A stretch of DNA of 29,323 bases from a virus. The stretch lies in IMG/VR virus record IMGVR_UViG_3300045135_000575, positions 1 to 29,323 of that record. One strand, given 5' to 3'. The notes beneath the pieces are model-generated. The model was not told the DNA's origin and ran no database searches. It saw only the letters and a list, made by a program, of their open reading frames with translations. Positions 1,773 through 27,684 of this stretch are shown here, piece after piece; within the stretch, counting starts at the first letter, position 1, and each line of letters starts with the position of its first letter. The translations under genes were made by a program, and so were the position numbers.

Positions 1773-2545
1773 TGGGTAAAGTTGCTAAGAAAAATGAAAC
1801 AAATGTCGTAGAGTTTGACATCTCTATGATGGAAGCCGACGCAAGCGTTGGTGTTTCAAACATGGGCCAAGACGATCTGGCCCTGCCGTTCCTTAAAATC
1901 TTGTCAGGGTTGGACCCCTTGCTGGATGAGTTAGATGAAGCCAAACGCGGTGACCTATACAACACCGTCAGCGGTCAAATCTACAAAGGAAAAGAAGGTG
2001 TTCTTTTAATTCCCTGTGCCTACCAACGTAGGTTCATCCAATGGGCTCCACGGGGCGCAGGAACTGGGGCACCAATAGCTATCTTTGATACGGCGCAAGA
2101 TTGCCCAAAGACAGAGCGCAGCAAAGACGACAACAAAGATTACGTTGTCGGCGGCGACGGCTCTTACATTGAAGAAACTCACCAGCATTTTGTAATATTG
2201 GTGAACGACGATGGTTCGGCAGAAACGGCGCTTATCGCCATGAAGTCAACCATGCTCAAGAAAAGCCGCAAGTGGAACAGCATGATTGCCTCCGCTACGG
2301 TGCAGGGCAAGAACGGTCCATTCACTCCACCGCGTTTTGGTTTTATATATCGCGCAAAAACAGTGATGGAAGAAAACAGCAAAGGTAGTTGGCACAACTG
2401 GGAAATCTCGCGAGAGAAACAGGTGGACGATGCCGCGCTGTATGTTCGGGCAAAAGACTTTTCTTCAACCATCGACAGCGGTGATGTTGTGGTAAAGCAC
2501 CAGAACGAAGAGGCGCAGAATAAGTCGGACGACGTTCCATTTTAA
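1772..2545 (+). CDS. Probable ssDNA-binding protein with SSB-like acidic tail
   Basis: This is a 257-residue protein. The middle has a beta-rich pattern (VLLIPCAYQRRFIQWAPRG, HFVILVNDDGS, ETALIAMKSTMLKKSRKWN, FTPPRFGFIYRAKT) shared by a family common in marine podovirus-like phages and usually placed in the gp2.5 position. The last residues are NKSDDVPF. Bacterial SSBs end in DDIPF, the acidic tip that recruits other replication proteins, so the ending is strong supporting evidence for an ssDNA-binding role. The preceding AGAGAGGAAA is a good ribosome binding site. The gene is translationally coupled to the upstream gene and is followed by primase and helicase genes. I infer the function from the tail, family resemblance and context; I cannot show an OB fold directly. 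Confidence 0.72.
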   Translation: MGKVAKKNETNVVEFDISMMEADASVGVSNMGQDDLALPFLKILSGLDPLLDELDEAKRGDLYNTVSGQIYKGKEGVLLIPCAYQRRFIQWAPRGAGTGAPIAIFDTAQDCPKTERSKDDNKDYVVGGDGSYIEETHQHFVILVNDDGSAETALIAMKSTMLKKSRKWNSMIASATVQGKNGPFTPPRFGFIYRAKTVMEENSKGSWHNWEISREKQVDDAALYVRAKDFSSTIDSGDVVVKHQNEEAQNKSDDVPF

Positions 2546-2551
2546 TGCAAC

Positions 2552-2587
2552 GGGCGGCGCAAGCCGCCCACCTTTTCTGAGGTATCA
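2552..2587 (+). promoter_or_regulatory. GC hairpin leader before primase
   Basis: GGGCGGC (2552-2558) pairs perfectly with GCCGCCC (2563-2569) around a GCAA tetraloop. TTTTC and a TGAGGTA ribosome binding site follow, then the primase ATG. It could be a weak terminator or attenuator, or an mRNA-stabilising hairpin. The same design occurs at 14789-14832 and 16014-16053. Confidence 0.6.
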
Positions 2588-4126
2588 ATGTCTGTCCAAC
2601 AATTTTCAGCCATCTTTGATGGCCTGCAAGAGGCATACGGCACATATCGTGTAGATAAAAAGCAGGCTAACGGGAAAAATACTGGCAAAGCACAAATCAT
2701 TCGGGAGCCACGCTCCGCGAAGCTATGGCGGGAGCATCTTTCTGGTAAAGGTGCCTCAATGGGTATCATCCCCATCAACGCCGAAAACAAATGCAAGTGG
2801 GGTTGCGTAGATGTAGACCAATATCCCCTTGACCATAAATTATTGGTGGAAAAGATCCGCAGGCTCAAGCTGCCGTTGGTGGTATGCCGCTCCAAGTCAG
2901 GTGGGGCGCACTGCTTTCTGTTCTCTACTGAATGGGTCGAAGCTGCCGACATGCAGAAGGCCCTGCAAAATATTGCCGCGGCCCTTGGCTATGGCGGAAG
3001 TGAAATCTTCCCAAAGCAAGTCAAGCTGCACCTTGACCGTGGTGACGTAGGTAACTTTTTAAACCTGCCGTATTACGACGCAGAGGACGGGCTACGCTAC
3101 GCTATCTTAGACGATGGCACCTCTGGTACTCTGGAAGAGTTTTTGGCGCTGTACGAGGCGCATAAGCAAACACCAGAGCAAATCATTAATCTGCAAGTCA
3201 CGCAGGAAAACGACAGTGAGGCCTTTGCTCACGGTCCGCCGTGCCTAAAAGCCTTAGCGCGTATCAAAATATCAGAAGGTGGGCGCAATAACGGACTTTT
3301 CAACGTCGGCGTATATCTGCGTAAGGCGCACCCTGACACGTGGGAAACAGAAATCCTGCGCTACAATAACGATTACTTTGACCCTCCTTTGCCTCTTAAC
3401 GAGGTCAATGTGGTCGCCAAGCAAGTGCAGCGCAAAGAATATGCGTACAAGTGTAACGATGCGCCGATCAACGCCTACTGCAATAAAGATCTGTGCCGTA
3501 CACAGCGGTTTGGTGTCGGTGCCGCAGCTTCCGGAGTGCCTGTCGCAAACCTACGCAAATATAACTCCACGCCACCTGTATGGTTCTTAGACGTTAACGG
3601 TGAGCCTTTGGAGCTAGACACCGACGGCCTGATGAACCAGCCCTCGTTCCAACGGGCCTGCATGGAGCAACTTAATATCATGCCGCACACTGTAGCCAAG
3701 CCGCAATGGGAAGGGCGGATAAGTTCCCTGCTAAGAGAAATGGCAGAGAATGACAGTGCTATCGTTGAGGTCGCGCAAGATGCCAGCATCAACGGCCAGT
3801 TCTACGATTATCTGGAAGAGTTCTGCGTCTTATTGCAAACCGCGCAGGATAAGGAAGAAATCCTACTCCGCCGCCCGTGGACAGATGACGAAGAGCAGAT
3901 GACTTACTTCCGTCTGAAAGACTTTGAAGCCTTTCTCAAAAAGAATAAGTTTTTCGAACTCAAGTCGCACAAGATTGCCCAACGCCTACGGGACATTAAC
4001 GGCGAAAGCATGTTGCTTAAAATCAAAGGTCGCCCTGTCCGCGTATGGAAGATCCCTGCTTATGACAGCGGTGACGTCGAACTGGCCACTCCAATCTTTG
4101 CAGCAAAAGGCGAGGCACCTTTCTGA
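2588..4126 (+). CDS. AEP-superfamily primase/PrimPol (TOTE-like primase domain)
   Basis: This 512-residue protein shows the hallmarks of the archaeo-eukaryotic primase catalytic core. They are the metal-binding DxD in GCVDVDQY (D75, D77), the SGGAH motif (residues 104-108, nucleotide-contacting His 108), EIFPKQ at 139-144, and LDRGDVGNFLNLPYY at about 149-163. The pattern GxDxD, S-x-S-GxGxH and FPKQ is close to the TOTE-conflict/LigD-like primase group. Residues about 215-310 look like a primase C-terminal (PriCT-like) helical domain with GRNNGLFNVGVYLRKAHP and a Cys-containing stretch, YKC..API..YCNKDLC. It probably makes primers for the PolA encoded downstream. The stop overlaps the helicase start by one base (TGATG), so primase and helicase are likely made together. 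A DnaG TOPRIM domain is absent. Confidence 0.85.
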   Translation: MSVQQFSAIFDGLQEAYGTYRVDKKQANGKNTGKAQIIREPRSAKLWREHLSGKGASMGIIPINAENKCKWGCVDVDQYPLDHKLLVEKIRRLKLPLVVCRSKSGGAHCFLFSTEWVEAADMQKALQNIAAALGYGGSEIFPKQVKLHLDRGDVGNFLNLPYYDAEDGLRYAILDDGTSGTLEEFLALYEAHKQTPEQIINLQVTQENDSEAFAHGPPCLKALARIKISEGGRNNGLFNVGVYLRKAHPDTWETEILRYNNDYFDPPLPLNEVNVVAKQVQRKEYAYKCNDAPINAYCNKDLCRTQRFGVGAAASGVPVANLRKYNSTPPVWFLDVNGEPLELDTDGLMNQPSFQRACMEQLNIMPHTVAKPQWEGRISSLLREMAENDSAIVEVAQDASINGQFYDYLEEFCVLLQTAQDKEEILLRRPWTDDEEQMTYFRLKDFEAFLKKNKFFELKSHKIAQRLRDINGESMLLKIKGRPVRVWKIPAYDSGDVELATPIFAAKGEAPF

Positions 4127-5643
4127 TGTTTAGAATATTTGGACCGCCCGGAACGGGCAAAACCACCACGCTACTAAATATGGTAGACAAAGCCTTGGAA
4201 GCGGGCACCCCACCACAATCTATAGGGTTCTTGGCCTTTACCCGCAAAGCGGCAAATGAGGCAAAGGAACGCGCTGCGGCGCGTTTTCGTTTGGACCCAC
4301 AGAAAGATCTGCAATACTTTCGCACCTTGCACAGCTTTGCACTCTCCCTGTCAGGCATCCGCCCAGAACAAATCATGCAACCTGAGAACTATAAAGAACT
4401 CAGCGAAGCAATGGGCATCAAGCTCGAAACGGGGCGCGTTAATCAGTTAGAAGAAGACGTCCAAGATGCGGTCAAAGCCAGTGACCCCATCCTTGGGCTT
4501 ATCAACCTTGCGAGGCTGAAAAAAACATCTTTGCGCAAGGAGTATAATCTTAGTAGCCTTGAACACGATTGGAATACCGTTAACCATGTAGACCGCTCGC
4601 TGCGCTCCTATAAACACGAAAGCGGCCTCTATGACTTCACCGATATGTTGCAAGGTTTTATTGACAAGGGCCATCAGTTTTGTCCGCGCTTTAACCTGTG
4701 CTTTGTAGATGAAGCTCAAGACTTATCTCCCATGCAGTGGGACATTGCCCATCTGATAGAAGCCAAAACCAAGCAGATGTACTGCGCGGGAGACGATGAC
4801 CAAGCCATATACAAATGGGCAGGGGCCGACGTCGAACACTTCCTTTCATTGGACGGCGGATCAGAAACGCTCAAACAATCCTACCGTATACCCGCAAGCG
4901 TTCACCGCGTGGCAGAAACAATCGCTCGCCGCATTCACCACCGTTACCCCAAGATATACAAGCCTCGCGAAGAAGAAGGCCAATGCCGACGCGTAGCGCA
5001 AGTCGGGGAACTAGACATGAGCGAAGGCTCGTGGCTCATACTCGCACAAGCAGGATACCAACTACAGCCCGTGGCAACAGACCTGCGGTCCTTCGGTTAT
5101 CTGTACGAATATCGCGGATCACGGTCCATTGGTCAAAAACTCAGTGACGCCGTAAACGGGTGGACTGACCTGCAACGCGGTAAGGAAATACCTATCGACA
5201 CCGCCCGAAACATCTATAGCTTTATGTCCACAGGTAAACGCGTGGCACGGGGGTATAAAAAAATTAAAGGCGTTCCAGATGACGAATTGGTTAATATCGA
5301 CGATCTTCAAATATCCCACGGCCTTATAGCCACAAAGGATATGATTTGGTCTGAAGCAATGGACCGCATTGCAGATAAAGACCGCGCCTACGTGACAGCA
5401 TTGCTGCGCCGCGGAGAAAAGTTCAACGGCGTTCCCCGCATTGTAGTGTCCACGATCCACGGTTCAAAAGGTGGAGAGGCGGACAACGTTGTATTGTTTA
5501 CGGACCTGTCCCCCGCTGCGGACAGCACTATGCGAATTGCACCCGACGATGTTCATCGTGTTTTCTACGTCGGCGTGACGCGTACAAGAAAGAACTTGTA
5601 TTTGGTGGAGCCTGAAGACGCGACAAGGAGTTATGATATATGA
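4126..5643 (+). CDS. SF1 DNA helicase (UvrD/Rep-like)
   Basis: This 505-residue helicase has its motifs in canonical order: Walker A GPPGTGKTT (6-14), motif Ia FLAFTRKAANEAKERA (35-50), Walker B FVDEAQDLSPMQWD (193-206), motif III AGDDDQAIYKWAGAD (221-235), motif IV LKQSYRIP (249-256), motif V STIHGSKGGEADNV (about 440-453) and motif VI VFYVGVTRTR (479-488). DEAQD and GDDDQAIY place it in SF1A with UvrD, Rep and PcrA. It is shorter than bacterial UvrD (about 720 residues) because the 1B/2B insertions are reduced. It likely unwinds DNA ahead of the phage polymerase. It starts by overlapping the primase stop and ends with an ATGA overlap into the next gene, deep inside one operon. Confidence 0.93.
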   Translation: MFRIFGPPGTGKTTTLLNMVDKALEAGTPPQSIGFLAFTRKAANEAKERAAARFRLDPQKDLQYFRTLHSFALSLSGIRPEQIMQPENYKELSEAMGIKLETGRVNQLEEDVQDAVKASDPILGLINLARLKKTSLRKEYNLSSLEHDWNTVNHVDRSLRSYKHESGLYDFTDMLQGFIDKGHQFCPRFNLCFVDEAQDLSPMQWDIAHLIEAKTKQMYCAGDDDQAIYKWAGADVEHFLSLDGGSETLKQSYRIPASVHRVAETIARRIHHRYPKIYKPREEEGQCRRVAQVGELDMSEGSWLILAQAGYQLQPVATDLRSFGYLYEYRGSRSIGQKLSDAVNGWTDLQRGKEIPIDTARNIYSFMSTGKRVARGYKKIKGVPDDELVNIDDLQISHGLIATKDMIWSEAMDRIADKDRAYVTALLRRGEKFNGVPRIVVSTIHGSKGGEADNVVLFTDLSPAADSTMRIAPDDVHRVFYVGVTRTRKNLYLVEPEDATRSYDI

Positions 5644-12428: not shown

Positions 12429-13076
12429 ATGGCAAAAACACCCCCAATTCCGAAGGGTTTGGTGTTACGGGCAAAGAAAAAACCCACCGGAAAGCGTTGG
12501 ACAAAACAAAATCCGGATGAATTGAGAGGCCGCAAGAGATTGCATGAAAACTCGCCTCTGACCCGTATGCAAGAGAAGTTTGTAAAAGAACTGGTTTCCA
12601 ACGATGGAACCATCACAATGTCAGAAGCCGCAGAACGAGCGGGCTATACAAAAAAGTCCGCTCCGGTTCGTGCGTCTCAAATGACAAATCCCCATATCAG
12701 CCCACACGTTTGCGCAGCGATAAAAAGATATCGTGATGAGCTAGATGAAAAGTTTGGCATAACCTATCAAAGACACGTGCGAGACCTACAGCGCATTCGA
12801 GACCTAGCTATTGAAAACGGCGCGTACAGTGCCGCAGTGCAGGCAGAATATAGGCGAGGTCAAGCGCAGGGCGATATCTACGTCAGTAAGTCGGAAATCC
12901 GTCACGGCAGCATTGATAGTATGAGCCGCGAGGATGTTCAAAAAGCTTTGGATGAGTTGAAGCAAACATATGGCGCAATTGACATTACCCCAGACGAAGA
13001 TGGAAGCGGGGCTTTATCAGCAATTGAAGGCAGCTACGAAGAGATCGACGCGGAATCTGATTCTTACGCGGATTGA
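12429..13076 (+). CDS. terS: Terminase small subunit
   Basis: This is a 215-residue protein. After a basic N-terminus (KGLVLRAKKKPTGKRWTKQ), residues about 43-100 read LTRMQEKFVKELVSNDGT, MSEAAERAGYTKKSAPVRAS and HISPHVCAAIKRYRDEL. This matches the Terminase_2 small-subunit pattern, in which the first helices form the DNA-binding HTH. The middle is helical (RHVRDLQRIRDLAIE and GAYSAAVQAEYRRGQAQG) as expected for ring oligomerisation. The C-terminus is acidic (EEIDAESDSYAD) and may contact the large subunit. The large subunit is 4 kb downstream rather than adjacent, which is unusual. The gene overlaps the nuclease gene. Confidence 0.83.
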   Translation: MAKTPPIPKGLVLRAKKKPTGKRWTKQNPDELRGRKRLHENSPLTRMQEKFVKELVSNDGTITMSEAAERAGYTKKSAPVRASQMTNPHISPHVCAAIKRYRDELDEKFGITYQRHVRDLQRIRDLAIENGAYSAAVQAEYRRGQAQGDIYVSKSEIRHGSIDSMSREDVQKALDELKQTYGAIDITPDEDGSGALSAIEGSYEEIDAESDSYAD

Positions 13077-13398
13077 AAACTGGGCAAGCCAAGGCATTCC
13101 TGACCTTCTCATTTGTGATGAGCGCGGAAAGTTTCACTTTGTTGAATTAAAGTTTTGTAAGGCTAACGCTGTTAACCTTAGCCCGCATCAAGTTGCATGG
13201 CATGTCCGCCATAAGCATTCATCATGCTGGACCTTGATCAAAAAACAAAACAAGCCCGACAGTACCCCATACCTATTTCTCTATCATGCGGATCAAGCAA
13301 TGGACCTAAAGGCGGACGGTTTGAAAACTGAGCCCCGATTAGCGCACGAAAAGAAATTTATCTGGGAGGAAGTTTTCAGCTTGATATGTCCTATTTAA
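13000..13398 (+). CDS. VRR-NUC (PD-(D/E)XK) nuclease
   Basis: This is a 132-residue reading from ATG 13000; an ATG at 12970 is also open. The core is QGIPDLLICDERGKFHFVEL followed by K, the PD...(E)xK catalytic signature of VRR-NUC nucleases (GIPD then VELK), and then SPHQVAWHVRH. Small stand-alone VRR-NUC proteins in phages are thought to cut branched or flapped DNA. The N-terminus overlaps terS by at least 77 bases, and neither candidate start has a strong ribosome binding site. Lying between the terminase genes, it may resolve replication intermediates before packaging (inference). Confidence 0.85.
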   Translation: MEAGLYQQLKAATKRSTRNLILTRIENWASQGIPDLLICDERGKFHFVELKFCKANAVNLSPHQVAWHVRHKHSSCWTLIKKQNKPDSTPYLFLYHADQAMDLKADGLKTEPRLAHEKKFIWEEVFSLICPI

Positions 13399-16614: not shown

Positions 16615-16646
16615 GGCTCGCCAGTTCTTTCTGGCGGGCCTTTTTT
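16615..16646 (+). terminator. Strong rho-independent terminator
   Basis: GGCTCGCCAG (16615-16624) pairs with CTGGCGGGCC (16631-16640) with one GU pair and a six-base loop, followed by six T. It ends the early/middle transcription block. Confidence 0.92.
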
Positions 16647-17071
16647 ATTTGTTTATAAAACTTGCGCCCGCCGCCCGCCCTCTATCGTTCTTAAACGTAT
16701 GACCGTGGCGCGTGGCGCGTGAACGGTGGCACCGGATCCGCCAATTGCGCCGCGCAGCTGCGCGACGGTTGCGGCGATTGCTGCGGATTTACTGCGCCGG
16801 AAACGGCCCAAAATTAATTGCAGCGCTGCAATTAATTGGATCCGTGCAATTAATTAATTGCACCGGCTGGCGCGATCCGCGGACCGTTTTTTGCGGCAGG
16901 GGCCCCGGGCTATCGGGTCAAATTGCGCAGTTTTTGCGCCAGCTGGCGCGGATTTCGCGCCGCGCACAGGGGTTTGCGCCACGGGTGCAAGGGCCATGTT
17001 TTTGACAAATAATCATGTAGAAAATACATTTGGTTTGCGCTAAGTTACATAAAATCGCATAGGGGCCCCCG
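16647..17071. repeat. Gene-free region dense in perfect palindromes
   Basis: Perfect palindromes lie at 16733-16740 (CGGATCCG), 16751-16764 (CGCGCAGCTGCGCG), 16812-16837 (26 bp, centre GCAGC|GCTGC between AATTAATT arms), 16844-16863 (20 bp, GTGCAATTAA and complement), 16876-16883 (TCCGCGGA), 16899-16906 (GGGGCCCC), 16936-16949 (GCGCCAGCTGGCGC) and 17062-17069 (GGGGCCCC). GGCGCG/CGCGCC at 16945-16961 makes a hairpin. TTAATT/AATTG blocks recur. A 97-codon frame at 16712 lacks a ribosome binding site. The region divides the early and late blocks and lies directly before the large terminase, fitting an origin, packaging or regulatory site. Confidence 0.82.
17002..17030 (+). promoter_or_regulatory. 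Late promoter before terL
   Basis: Consensus TTGACA (17002-17007), 17 bases and TACATT (17025-17030). It has no TCCCATA, unlike the early promoters. It should start the long terminase-portal transcript. Confidence 0.72.
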
Positions 17072-18529
17072 ATGAATGCAACCGTAGGTTCAGTTGAAGA
17101 AAGAATGTTAAAATTGCAGTTGCGTTTAGCGCAATTGGAGAAAAACGAATTAGCGCAAAATAATTTCCTACATTTTGTGCATGCGATGTGGCCAGAGTTT
17201 ATATCTGGTAGGCACCATAAAATTATCGCGGAGAAGCTTCAGCGGGTCGCGAACGGCGAGCTAAAGCGCTTGATTATTAACATGGCCCCGCGGCACACGA
17301 AGAGTGAGTTTGCGTCTTTTTTGTTTCCTGCTTGGATGATGGGTCAGAACCCGCGGATGAAGATTATTCAGGCGACGCACACGACGGAGTTGGCTGTTAA
17401 CTTTGGCCGTAAGACTAAGAATTTGATTGACAGTGATGAGTACAAGGAGGTGTTTCCGGAGGTTAAGTTAGCTGCGGATAGTAAGGCTTCTGGACGGTGG
17501 GACACGAGCCGTGGCGGGATGTATTATGCTGTTGGTGTTGGTAGTAACTTGGCTGGTCGTGGTGGTGATTTGGTGATTATTGATGATCCTCATTCTGAGC
17601 AGACGGCTATGAGTAACAGTGGTTTTGATGATGCTTGGGATTGGTATACTGGGGGCCCTCGTCAGCGTTTACAGCCGGGAGGTAGTATAGTTTTGGTTCA
17701 GACTCGTTGGTCTGAGAAGGATATGACGGGTCAGTTATTGCGGGCTATGGCTAAGGATCCTTTGGCGGATCAGTGGGAGGTTGTTGAGTTACCTGCGATA
17801 TTTGATGATGGTAAGCCTTGTTGGCCAGAGTTTTGGAGTTTGGAGGATTTGACTGCGGTTAAGGCTTCTATTCCACCTAGCAAGTGGAATGCGCAGTATC
17901 AGCAGAAGCCAACGGGTGAAGAGAATGCGATTATACCGCGGGAGTGGTGGCGTATTTGGGAGGGTGAGAACATTCCACAATTGCAGTATGTGATACAGAG
18001 TTATGATACTGCGTTTACGAAGCGGGAGCGTTCTGACTTTAGTGCGATAACGACATGGGGTGTGTTTTATCCGGAGGAGGGTGGTCCTCCTAATTTGATA
18101 TTGTTGGATGCGAAGAAGGGTCGGTATGATTTTCCTGAGTTAAAGGCGTTGGCGTTTGAGGAGTATGAGTATTGGGATCCTGACACGGTGATTATTGAGG
18201 CGAAGGCGAGTGGATTGCCCTTGACGCATGAGATGCGGCAGACGGGTATTCCTGTTGTAAATTTCACGCCTAGTAAGGGGAATGACAAGGTAAGTCGTGT
18301 TTATGCTGTTAGTCCTTTGTTTGAGGCTGGTATGGTTTGGGCCCCCGACAAGAGTTGGGCGGAGGAGTTGATTGAGGAGGTTGCGGCGTTTCCGGAGGGG
18401 GAGTATGACGATTTGGTAGATAGCATGACGCAGGCGTTAATGCGGTATCGTCAGGGGAACTTTATTCAGTTACCAACAGATGATTGGCAAGATGTAGAAA
18501 AGTCTGCTATGGTTAGGGCGTATTACTAG
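17072..18529 (+). CDS. terL: Terminase large subunit
   Basis: This 485-residue packaging motor and nuclease has a Walker A-like APRHTKSE (72-79), Walker B LVIIDDPH (167-174) and coupling motif VQTRWSEKD (209-217). The RNase H-like nuclease acidic residues lie in QSYDTAF (D312), VIIEAKASG (E376) and EYDDLVDSM (D446, D447, D450). The motif set resembles Terminase_6-type large subunits. It docks on the portal and translocates DNA into the head. The ribosome site is weak and overlaps GGGGCCCC. From about 17240 the codons become strongly G/T-rich compared with the earlier genes. The portal gene follows nine bases later. Confidence 0.95.
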   Translation: MNATVGSVEERMLKLQLRLAQLEKNELAQNNFLHFVHAMWPEFISGRHHKIIAEKLQRVANGELKRLIINMAPRHTKSEFASFLFPAWMMGQNPRMKIIQATHTTELAVNFGRKTKNLIDSDEYKEVFPEVKLAADSKASGRWDTSRGGMYYAVGVGSNLAGRGGDLVIIDDPHSEQTAMSNSGFDDAWDWYTGGPRQRLQPGGSIVLVQTRWSEKDMTGQLLRAMAKDPLADQWEVVELPAIFDDGKPCWPEFWSLEDLTAVKASIPPSKWNAQYQQKPTGEENAIIPREWWRIWEGENIPQLQYVIQSYDTAFTKRERSDFSAITTWGVFYPEEGGPPNLILLDAKKGRYDFPELKALAFEEYEYWDPDTVIIEAKASGLPLTHEMRQTGIPVVNFTPSKGNDKVSRVYAVSPLFEAGMVWAPDKSWAEELIEEVAAFPEGEYDDLVDSMTQALMRYRQGNFIQLPTDDWQDVEKSAMVRAYY

Positions 18530-18538
18530 GAGAGTCGG

Positions 18539-20947
18539 ATGGCGCGGGCACCTATTGGCGGTTTGATGGACACGAATGTTCCGTCTCAGTTGGATGAGGC
18601 GGATTTGAGTGCGGAGTTAGAACTAGAGATACCGGATTCCCAAGAGACTCCTTTGATGCTTGATAGCGGGGAGGAGATTGAGGTTGTTGAGGAGGATGAC
18701 GGGAGTGTTCTTGTAGACTTTGATCCTTCTGAGGACATGGCGGATGTTGGGTTTGATGAGAACTTGGCGGAGGTTATGGATGATCGTGAGTTGGGTGCGA
18801 TTGCTTCGGAGTTGATGGGGGAGTTTGACGCGAACAAGGCCAGTCGTCAAGAATGGGAGGATGCGTATACTGAGGGTTTGGAGCTTTTGGGCTTTAACTA
18901 TCAGGAGCGGACGGAGCCGTTTCGTGGAGCCTCTGGTGTGACTCATCCGTTATTGGCGGAGGCTGCGACGCAGTTTCAGGCGCAGGCGTTTAACGAGTTA
19001 CTGCCGTCTTCGGGGCCTGTTCGGACTGCTATTATGGGTGATGAGACTCGTGAGAAGCAGGATCAGGCGTCCCGTGTTCGAGGGTTTATGAACTATTACA
19101 TTACGAATGTGATGGATGATTACACTCCTGACATGGATCAGATGTTGTTTTATTTACCGTTGGCGGGGAGTACCTTTAAGAAGGTTTATTACGATGAGGT
19201 AATGGGCCGTGCGGTAAGTAAGTTTGTCCCTGCGGAGCAATTGGTTGTGCCGTATGAGACCTCTGATTTGGATACGTGTTCGAATATTGCGCATGTTATT
19301 CGGATGAATTTGAATGATTTACGCAAGCAACAGATAGCTGGGGTGTATCGGGATATACCGATTATACCGCAACAGGCTGATGCGGGTGAGGTACAGGGTG
19401 AGTTGGATCGTATTACGGGATTTGAGCCCGGAAGTATTGATTATGACTGTACTTTGGTTGAGTTTCACGCAGACTTGGACCTTGAGGGGTTTGAGGATGT
19501 GGATGAAGACGGGGAGCCTACGGGCATTAAGATTCCCTATATTGTGACGATTTCGCAGGATAATGGGCAGGTTTTGTCTATTCGGCGTAATTATCGCGAG
19601 GACGATGAGTTAAAGCGTAAGATACAATATTTTGTACATTACAAGTTTTTACCGGGCTTTGGTTTTTATGGGTTGGGGTTGATCCATACGATTGGCGGTT
19701 TGTCACGAACTGCCACGGCGGCGCTGCGACAGTTGATCGACGCTGGTACGTTGTCCAATCTCCCAGCGGGTTTCAAGGCCCGCGGACTACGGATCAGGGA
19801 CGACGATGATCCGTTGCAGCCGGGTGAGTTCAGAGATGTGGACGCGCCGGGAGGGGCTATTCGTGACAGCCTGATGCCGCTGCCATTTAAGGGTCCGGAC
19901 CAGACGTTGTTTCAGTTGTTGGGTTTTGTGGTTCAGGCGGGTCAGCGGTTTGCGACTATTACTGACATGAAGGTTGGTGATGGTAATCAGCAAGCTGCGG
20001 TTGGTACGACGTTGGCTATGTTGGAGCAGGGTTCGCGGGTAATGAGTGCTGTACATAAGCGGCTTCATTATGCGATGCGGATTGAGTTTAAGTTGCTTGC
20101 GCGTGTGATGAGCGAGTTCTTGCCGCAGGAGTATCCGTATACGGTTGAGGGCGGCAATCAGTCTGTGATGGCGTCAGACTTTGATGATCGTGTGGACATT
20201 GTTCCGGTCAGTAATCCGAATACGTTTAGTCAGGCGCAACGGATAGCTTTGGCTCAGACTAAGATGCAGTTGGCGGGGTCGGCACCTGAGTTGCATAATA
20301 TGCACGAAGTGTATCGTGATATGTATGAGGCGATTGGTGTTACGGATGTTGATCGTTTAATGAAGAAGGTTCCGGACGAGGAGCCACGGCCCTTGGACCC
20401 TGCTTCTGAGAATATCAATGCGATGGACATGGTTGAGTTGAATGCGTTTCAGGGTCAGAATCATCAGGCTCATATTATGGCTCACTTGGTGTTTGCGTCT
20501 AGTCCGATGATTGGAGGTATGCCTCCTGTTGCGATGTCTATGCAGAAACATGTTATGGAGCATGTAAAGTTGCAGGCTGAAGAGCAGGCTATGATGCAGT
20601 TACAGCAAGCTGGGCCGATGCCCGCGGACCAACAGGAGATGCAGTATCAGGCGTTGGTTGCGCAAGGTGTTGCGCAGGGATTGCAGCAAGTTAAGCAGAT
20701 GAGCGCACAAGTCTCTGGTCAGGGACCGGATCCTCTGGTAAAGTTGAAGGAGCAGGAGTTGCAGATCAAGGCTCAAGCGGAGCAGGCGGATGCGCAGTTG
20801 GATCAGGCGAAATTGCAGCTTGATGCGCAGAACCAGCAGATGCGGGCACAACAGTTTGATAAGCGGCTCGCGAGCCAAGAGGCTATGACGCAGGCGCGTA
20901 TTGACAGTGCGATGCAGCGTGAAGTTATGAAGCAAAGGGGTCAGTAA
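18539..20947 (+). CDS. Portal protein (large, marine-phage type)
   Basis: This is an 802-residue protein with AGGAGA before its ATG. The first 100 residues are very acidic (EEIEVVEEDDGS). Then comes ASRQEWEDAYTEGLELLG and TEPFRGASGVTHPLLAEAAT, followed by a long core with VGDGNQQAAVGTTLAMLEQG near residue 490, the region where P22-like portals keep their conserved helical part. The C-terminus (about 680-800) is Gln/Ala-rich coiled coil (ELQIKAQAEQADAQLDQAKL), like the barrel of large podovirus portals. It forms the dodecameric vertex through which DNA enters. Its position directly after terL supports the call. Codon use is G/T-biased like terL. Confidence 0.87.
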   Translation: MARAPIGGLMDTNVPSQLDEADLSAELELEIPDSQETPLMLDSGEEIEVVEEDDGSVLVDFDPSEDMADVGFDENLAEVMDDRELGAIASELMGEFDANKASRQEWEDAYTEGLELLGFNYQERTEPFRGASGVTHPLLAEAATQFQAQAFNELLPSSGPVRTAIMGDETREKQDQASRVRGFMNYYITNVMDDYTPDMDQMLFYLPLAGSTFKKVYYDEVMGRAVSKFVPAEQLVVPYETSDLDTCSNIAHVIRMNLNDLRKQQIAGVYRDIPIIPQQADAGEVQGELDRITGFEPGSIDYDCTLVEFHADLDLEGFEDVDEDGEPTGIKIPYIVTISQDNGQVLSIRRNYREDDELKRKIQYFVHYKFLPGFGFYGLGLIHTIGGLSRTATAALRQLIDAGTLSNLPAGFKARGLRIRDDDDPLQPGEFRDVDAPGGAIRDSLMPLPFKGPDQTLFQLLGFVVQAGQRFATITDMKVGDGNQQAAVGTTLAMLEQGSRVMSAVHKRLHYAMRIEFKLLARVMSEFLPQEYPYTVEGGNQSVMASDFDDRVDIVPVSNPNTFSQAQRIALAQTKMQLAGSAPELHNMHEVYRDMYEAIGVTDVDRLMKKVPDEEPRPLDPASENINAMDMVELNAFQGQNHQAHIMAHLVFASSPMIGGMPPVAMSMQKHVMEHVKLQAEEQAMMQLQQAGPMPADQQEMQYQALVAQGVAQGLQQVKQMSAQVSGQGPDPLVKLKEQELQIKAQAEQADAQLDQAKLQLDAQNQQMRAQQFDKRLASQEAMTQARIDSAMQREVMKQRGQ

Positions 20948-27149: not shown

Positions 27150-27180
27150 AAAAATTACTGTATGCTCAAGTTATCCCTGA

Positions 27181-27199
27181 CAAACACACGGTGTGTTTG
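27181..27199. repeat. Inverted repeat upstream of 27223 gene
   Basis: CAAACACA and TGTGTTTG surround CGG, forming an eight-base stem with a three-base loop. It sits between the capsid terminator and the next gene's ribosome site (CAGGAG). It could be an operator or a leader hairpin; no convincing promoter is visible between them. Confidence 0.55.
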
Positions 27200-27222
27200 A
27201 CTAACCCAGACAGGAGATTAAC

Positions 27223-27684
27223 ATGGGTACTACGACTTTTTCTGGTCCAATCAAGGCCGGGACCATCCGAAACACCACAGGCACTACACTTGGAACTGAC
27301 GTTGCAAACGTTGGTCAAGTAGTCATGTCGCAAACGTTTGCGGCGGATTTGTCAAACGGTGCAATTGCTGCCGATACTACAAACGTGGTTATTCCAGCAA
27401 ACTCACAGATTATTGATTGTGTGATTGATGTTATTACTGCGGCAAGCGGAGCAACCAACTTGAGCGTTGGTGACACTGTAGGTGGCGCGACATCTATCCT
27501 TAACACCTTTGCTATTGGAACTACTGCGGGCCGTAAATACCCTACTACGCAAGCGGGAGCCGCATTAGCGTGGGAGGATACGGGAACAGCGGACATTCGT
27601 CTGACCGTTACTGCTTCCGCGGCAACTACTGCGGGTGAAGTTCGGGTTACAATTCTGTACGCTCAAAACAACAATCTTGGATAA
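27223..27684 (+). CDS. Beta-rich probable virion surface protein
   Basis: This is a 153-residue protein, Ala/Thr/Gly/Val-rich and low in charge (TFSGPIKAGTIRNTTGTTL, IPANSQIIDCVIDVITAASG, then ADIRLTVTASAATTAGEVRV). Its strand-turn pattern fits a beta-sandwich or jelly-roll protein on the head surface, or a small fibre. It lies behind the capsid gene and is followed at 9 bases by another small beta-rich protein, suggesting a pair. It has no clear family. Confidence 0.62.
   Translation: MGTTTFSGPIKAGTIRNTTGTTLGTDVANVGQVVMSQTFAADLSNGAIAADTTNVVIPANSQIIDCVIDVITAASGATNLSVGDTVGGATSILNTFAIGTTAGRKYPTTQAGAALAWEDTGTADIRLTVTASAATTAGEVRVTILYAQNNNLG

Follow-up and report, generated by a model that had tools for sequence, protein, structure and literature searches.

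On balance, sequence comparison suggests that the interval in front of the large terminase gene terL holds a packaging-initiation site of the pac type, in the style of SPP1 and SF6 and in a new arrangement, and this candidate packaging site may double as a control region of the late operon. The reading is based on the rigid spacing of a bipartite element, on a drifting, phased spacer between its two boxes, on its position next to the terminase genes in both gene orders and on a small terminase (TerS) of the SF6 type. We call the element "pac-type" and not an "SPP1 pac site" because the start of terS lies 4.5 kb upstream of it in the DNA analysed here (the window), a 29.3-kb piece of a tailed-phage genome with the called genes on the + strand. 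The left side of the window carries the genes for primase, helicase and DNA polymerase I, the right side terL, the portal gene and the capsid genes. The features needed are:

12429-13076, + strand: terS, small terminase with an SPP1/SF6-type HTH (PF03592, phrog_51, SF6 TerS structures)
16615-16640, + strand: intrinsic-terminator-like hairpin (10-bp stem, 8 GC) and T-run (TTTTTTATTT tail), ending the upstream gene block
16650-16898: hypervariable palindrome-rich stretch (26-, 20- and 14-bp palindromes), with indels and duplications between near-identical phages
16899-16920, + strand: box 1, GGGGCCCC (GGGkCCC in relatives), N4/5, TATCGGGTCA, conserved in relatives
16921-16993, + strand: spacer with phased A/T runs, 73 bp here, 72-76 bp in 179 loci
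16991-17013, + strand: box 2, GGGCCATGTTTTTGACAAATAAT (GGGCCATGTTTcTcnCAAATAnT in relatives), conserved in relatives
17002-17030, + strand: sigma-70-like promoter TTGACA-17-TACATT overlapping box 2; such promoters are no more numerous than in shuffles
17062-17069, + strand: second copy, GGGkCCCC, at the terL ribosome-binding region
17072-18529, + strand: terL, large terminase (phrog_38, E 7e-108)
18539-20947, + strand: portal protein gene (phrog_1216, E 5e-53)

The preliminary description of this DNA had placed the interval exactly between the early and late gene blocks. This agrees with the early-type terminator before it (16615-16640, kept in close relatives) and terL after it, but terS sits 4 kb upstream, within the "early" side. 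An Rfam search of the window revealed no structured RNA in the interval; the sole match was RF03012 (Mu-gpT-DE RNA; 27175-27225, 56.1 bits), right after the major head protein gene. A 97-aa frame in the interval was rejected as a small protein, having no Pfam match and being crossed by indels in relatives.

Conserved element and phased spacer

The element lies partly beside the palindromes of the interval and reads GGGkCCC-TATCGGGTCA (16899-16920), then GGGCCATGTT...CAAATAAT (16991-17013). The consensus order across relatives is GGGkCCC, 12 bp on TATCGGGTCA, then GGGCCATGTTTnTnnCAAATAnT. The TATCGGGTCA and GGGCCATGTT cores occur once each, both here, in the window as well as in three long relatives. 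GGGkCCC itself is repeated, at -173 and -10 of terL.

Relatives were gathered by TerL (80) and by portal protein (80 loci). Furthermore, viral contigs were scanned by the DNA pattern alone, without TerL, and the matches pooled with the prior loci gave 183 element loci. In 170 of these terL follows downstream in the examined stretch, and most of the others are cut by contig ends. Apparent chance matches of the pattern are L357, L387, L391 and L362, possibly also L376. The element is thereby known from about 180 related marine phage contigs and provides a sequence tag for a possible packaging start in this uncultured marine phage group.

The distance between the two boxes is practically fixed. 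In all 179 loci that satisfy the strict pattern the spacer measures 72-76 bp (73-74 bp in 147 of them). TATCGGG and CCATGTT are set 82-85 bp apart in 65 of 65 relatives retrieved through TerL or the portal protein. The distance from the element to the gene start varies, the one from box 1 to box 2 does not.

Base conservation within the spacer is low, and its A/T content recurs every 10-11 bp or so. Among 27 spacers less than 70% identical to each other, autocorrelation reached z values of 7.1 at lag 10, 7.8 at lag 11 and 6.3 at lag 21, with -4.0 at lag 16. In a set of 58 representatives less than 65% identical (mean aligned identity 0.47, compared to 0.38 for shuffled pairs), the strongest period in the range of 5-20 was 10.25 bp, with a mean A/T power of 0.69 vs 0.228±0.029 after shuffling. 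The phase coherence of these 58 spacers was 0.66, a value inflated by shared ancestry. The phase is fixed relative to box 1, being strong in the adjoining half and weak when the spacers are aligned on box 2. For 10-11-bp A/T power the spacer of the window ranks at the 99.8th percentile of all 68-bp windows of this DNA; many relatives show only modest phasing at the single locus, the median being the 80th percentile. The resemblance to the bent or phased DNA of about 100 bp in an SPP1/SF6-type pac site is seen in this 10.25-bp periodicity.

Transversions in the spacer that keep the W/S class outnumber the others by 226:142, compared to a ratio of 1.12 expected from composition, which is a mild preference. 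The ratio is 1.59 in the spacer and 1.30 in the flank, so that the two are poorly separated, and this test is only suggestive of a selection for A/T versus G/C class.

Probable packaging start and possible late-operon control

The TerS encoded in the window belongs to the SPP1/SF6 family, matching phrog_51 (E 7e-12) and, just under the cut-off, Pfam Terminase_2 (PF03592, E 3e-5). A profile of 28 TerS sequences matched the SF6 TerS structures 4zc3, 3zqp and 2cmp (E 2.6e-5 to 7.2e-5) via the HTH region. SF6 TerS was the sole terminase in the PDB matched by sequence; PaP3 was not matched. Orthologues are present in 19 of 19 records, and homologues in GenBank carry the TerS annotation. An AlphaFold model of the monomer shows helices in the HTH region at low overall confidence (pLDDT 63), and a fold search with it against the PDB was uninformative. 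Directly 3' of terS lies a nuclease-like gene (12970-13398; phrog_93 endonuclease, phrog_5702 resolvase).

Two gene orders occur. In order A, to which the window belongs, the element adjoins terL, with terS 4-7 kb upstream of the two. Order B (L041, L042, L043, L133, L318, L386, L398, L399 and others) has terS immediately after the element and terL about 1 kb beyond; a location of the site at the start of terS is accordingly seen in order-B relatives only. In both orders the genes of the packaging block begin right behind the element, and it adjoins a terminase gene, terL (A) or terS (B), in about 170 of the 183 loci. Two order-B loci, L041 and L272, carry a gene similar to the one at 12970-13398 between terS and terL. 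The terL of L272 (about 1947-4874) is broken into three matching segments by inserts, suggesting an intein or intron.

For SF6 and SPP1 it was proposed that TerS selects a piece of pac DNA of about 100 bp, intrinsically bent and with regular A/T runs, by a ring of weak HTH contacts and also represses the motor operon (PMC4737164). This recognition model predicts a tolerance of sequence drift (PMC4737164). By analogy, a ring of TerS subunits would recognise box 1 and box 2 and bend or wrap the roughly 80-100 bp between them, picking the DNA mainly by its shape. TerL would then cut the DNA for the first time close by, and packaging by the headful mechanism would start. Occupancy by TerS may also damp a late promoter overlapping or following box 2, an effect reported for the motor operon of SPP1. 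We tentatively consider it possible that the packaging start is chosen by DNA shape, i.e. that anchors, helical distance and A/T phasing are kept while the sequence between them drifts.

Site recognition by small terminases has been called a key unanswered question, and the wrapping ("nucleosome") model of TerS is disputed, its evidence being scarce and inconclusive (PMC9611059). Selection by shape, if true, would add comparative evidence for this model across more than 100 natural variants. Because the model is disputed, such a variant series is useful: it comprises more than 100 natural sites along with their own TerS genes, which makes spacing and phase accessible to direct tests in vitro.

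The pac-type reading is mainly rivalled by a late promoter whose upstream DNA is curved. Box 2 and the sequence downstream of it would then form the late promoter or promoters, box 1 would bind a phage activator, packaging would start elsewhere, and the phased spacer would be curved upstream DNA wrapping RNA polymerase or the activator. Taken as a whole, we regard this explanation as unlikely, at a level that still deserves weight. Promoters, too, are known with curved A-tract DNA on their upstream side. The promoter-like TTGACA-17-TACATT overlapping box 2 in the window and the terminator upstream of the interval are in line with it, and the position ahead of the first late or terminase gene in both orders fits equally well. 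A fixed helical spacing would also suit contacts between an activator and the polymerase. However, the -35 hexamer in box 2 is not preserved in most relatives, which read TTTCTCnCAAATA instead, and it is the distance from the element to the gene start that varies and not the one between the boxes. Furthermore, no candidate activator was identified.

A cos site of the PaP3 or lambda kind, in which a cosB and a staggered cut would produce fixed cohesive ends, appears improbable. It would likewise be expected before the terminase genes, the conserved dyad GGGkCCC could serve as a symmetric nick site, and PaP3 TerS is also in the HTH nonamer class (PMC7672466). On the other hand, contig ends near the element are scattered without a pile-up at one homologous base, and contigs of 44-56 kb run through it, which is weak evidence as these are metagenome assemblies. 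The PaP3 cos 20-mer was unmatched at up to 3 mismatches, and the PDB match of the TerS profile is SF6, a pac phage, and not PaP3. A clustering of contig ends (8 of about 28 contigs of at least 14 kb end 187-444 bp before terL) was considered as a sign of physical termini and rejected; the ends are scattered and several contigs start inside tandem repeats, so that assembly breaks explain them. A comparison of those ends of 51-56-kb contigs that lie far from terL did not reveal a shared terminus.

Supposed replication signals, palindromes and parS sites

The preliminary description had hinted that the palindromes may form a replication origin or packaging signal. Of the readings of this locus a packaging-type signal fits best, but what is conserved in it are the bipartite motif and the phased spacer instead of the palindromes, and a replication origin, with neither a cluster of DnaA boxes nor a mirrored skew, is unsupported. 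An origin built from the palindromes and AT-rich repeats is very improbable. The AT-rich dyads (AATTAATT), the phased DNA, the location between gene blocks and a strand skew starting at terL would all suit it, but close relatives have lost the AATTAATT dyads, and matches to the DnaA box, which would mark an origin of the DnaA type and not one of a phage-specific initiator, are at chance level over the window with none clustered in the interval. The skew, too, is a two-gene plateau with sharp edges, neither mirrored nor centred on an origin. At 4-fold degenerate sites GC skew is about 0 before terL and +0.64 to +0.82 over terL and the portal gene, where AT skew is -0.51 to -0.69 (17072-20947). 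This extreme strand bias begins at terL and falls sharply after the end of the portal gene at 20947. On a coarse scale it looked like a decay from the site, and this gradient was rejected as an origin signal once the finer scale gave the terL-portal plateau. The change in base composition assigned earlier to the interval is therefore real but starts at terL. The third-position bias of terL in relatives has the same sign as in the window.

The interval is indeed packed with palindromes, as first described. It contains 13 maximal perfect palindromes of at least 8 bp (8-26 bp, nested ones included) between 16652 and 17069, compared to 4.6±2.3 in dinucleotide-preserving shuffles of the interval, of which only 5 of 2000 reached 13. 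Four palindromes are at least 12 bp long (0.48 in shuffles), and no other 400 bp of the window are as dense. The long palindromes are:

16751-16764: palindrome CGCGCAGCTGCGCG
16812-16837: palindrome AATTAATTGCAGCGCTGCAATTAATT, 26 bp
16844-16863: palindrome GTGCAATTAATTAATTGCAC, 20 bp
16936-16949: palindrome GCGCCAGCTGGCGC, inside the spacer of the bipartite element

Palindromes of 6 bp show no excess in the interval (17, about 15 expected). The presumed avoidance of such sites by the phage was confirmed for the rest of the window, where 6-bp palindromes number 318 vs 473±16. Those of 8 bp are avoided there as well (77 vs 120±11), and not inside the interval.

The palindromes are mostly not conserved, an outcome that the preliminary description had itself named as refuting, and its palindrome part fails on this point. 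The 26-bp palindrome was found in the window only, and the 20-bp one in some relatives only. An exact search of viral contigs with the 26-mer, tried as a search tag and rejected, gave no other match. Even in the closest phages, with 95-97% identical TerL, the interval has undergone many duplications and deletions. L004, L006, L007 and L010-L013 are without the AATTAATT block, the one with the 26- and 20-bp palindromes, and the 26-bp palindrome is disrupted in L005, L008 and L009. L005 and L008 possess a 12-bp palindrome with another centre (TGCAGGCCTGCA) at the same spot. Across the intervals of the relatives 61 palindromes of at least 12 bp were counted vs 10.4 expected, parS sites accounting for part of them. 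Without parS their density is 3.3/kb in the hypervariable part and 0.7-1.3/kb in the spacer and in what follows up to terL. The long palindromes look like products of a fast-changing, slippage-prone and indel-rich stretch and would not be the sequence recognised in the packaging element.

Least probable of all is a function of the palindromes themselves, as restriction decoys, operator sites or cruciform signals, with the bipartite element being incidental: their excess here and in the corresponding stretch of relatives (about fourfold there if parS is left out), their avoidance elsewhere in the window and the 12-bp palindrome carried by L005 and L008 agree with it, but sequence, number and position change between phages with nearly identical TerL, up to the loss of the whole AATTAATT block.

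The hypervariable stretch of other phages contains different repeats. About 300 bp upstream of box 1 relatives such as L261, L253, L081 and L048 show a period of 7 bp, with z about 17 for 36 divergent loci and harmonics at 14, 21, 28 and 35, in varied GC-rich heptads like NCCGYGG. This periodicity was not used for the window, where it is absent (lag-7 identity 0.26). Phage-specific tandem repeats with units of 7 to about 34 bp occur in the interval of L275, L032, L081, L041 and L221, and metagenomic contigs often break at the tandem repeats upstream of terL.

The exact 16-bp bacterial parS (TGTTTCACGTGAAACA; consensus as listed in PMC7022226) was detected in 26 of 85 relatives, in one or two copies 31-137 bp before terL, i.e. 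between the element and terL. Among these are L034, L041-L043, L050-L053, L063, L067, L073, L076-L078, L080, L083 and L275, and some carry a second site, TGTTCCACGTGGAACA, as well. Some order-B loci have parS close to where terS starts, about 1.04 kb ahead of terL. The window has no exact site, its best match to parS (TGTTNCACGTGNAACA) containing 3 mismatches (23637), which is at chance level. In the parS-bearing contigs tested, the copies in the interval are the only ones, and no ParB_N protein is encoded. Because these contigs lack a ParB_N gene, ParB of the host would have to be the reader. Host-type parS beside the element in about a third of the relatives raises the question of whether host ParB is recruited, and a recruitment at the terminase promoter or candidate packaging site of these phages is possible. 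A literature search found no paper reporting such phage parS sites, which may still be known.

Comparison with known packaging systems

Homologous terminases are found in the pelagiphages of the HTVC023P/HTVC027P type and in phage DSL-LC04, with TerL (53-62% aa identity) and TerS (34-55%) at the same kind of junction. The cultured HTVC023P and HTVC027P, however, are without the element, TATCGGGTCA being entirely absent, and in these two phages and DSL-LC04 the intergenic stretches hold other palindromes. The chromosomal parS of bacteria, as described above, is exact in 26 of 85 relatives and absent from the window.

With the cos sites of PaP3 and lambda the element shares a place before the terminase genes and a role in recognition by the terminase through binding of TerS, which is putative here. 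It differs from them in that the contig ends give no signal of fixed ends and that the PaP3 cos is unmatched.

The likeness to pac of the Bacillus headful phages SPP1 and SF6 goes further. TerS is of the same HTH family and the site adjoins the terminase genes; both comprise about 100 bp with regular A/T runs, for which recognition by shape was proposed, and pac overlaps the control region of the motor operon (PMC4737164), as the element may do here. In contrast to pac of SPP1 and SF6, two strongly conserved boxes flank the phased DNA at a fixed distance here, and the candidate site of the window stands beside terL, 4 kb from terS. Of direct repeats, which SPP1 has as boxes A, B and C, only the two copies of GGGkCCC were noted. 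In the order-B relatives the element is located directly before terS and thereby in the SPP1-like position.
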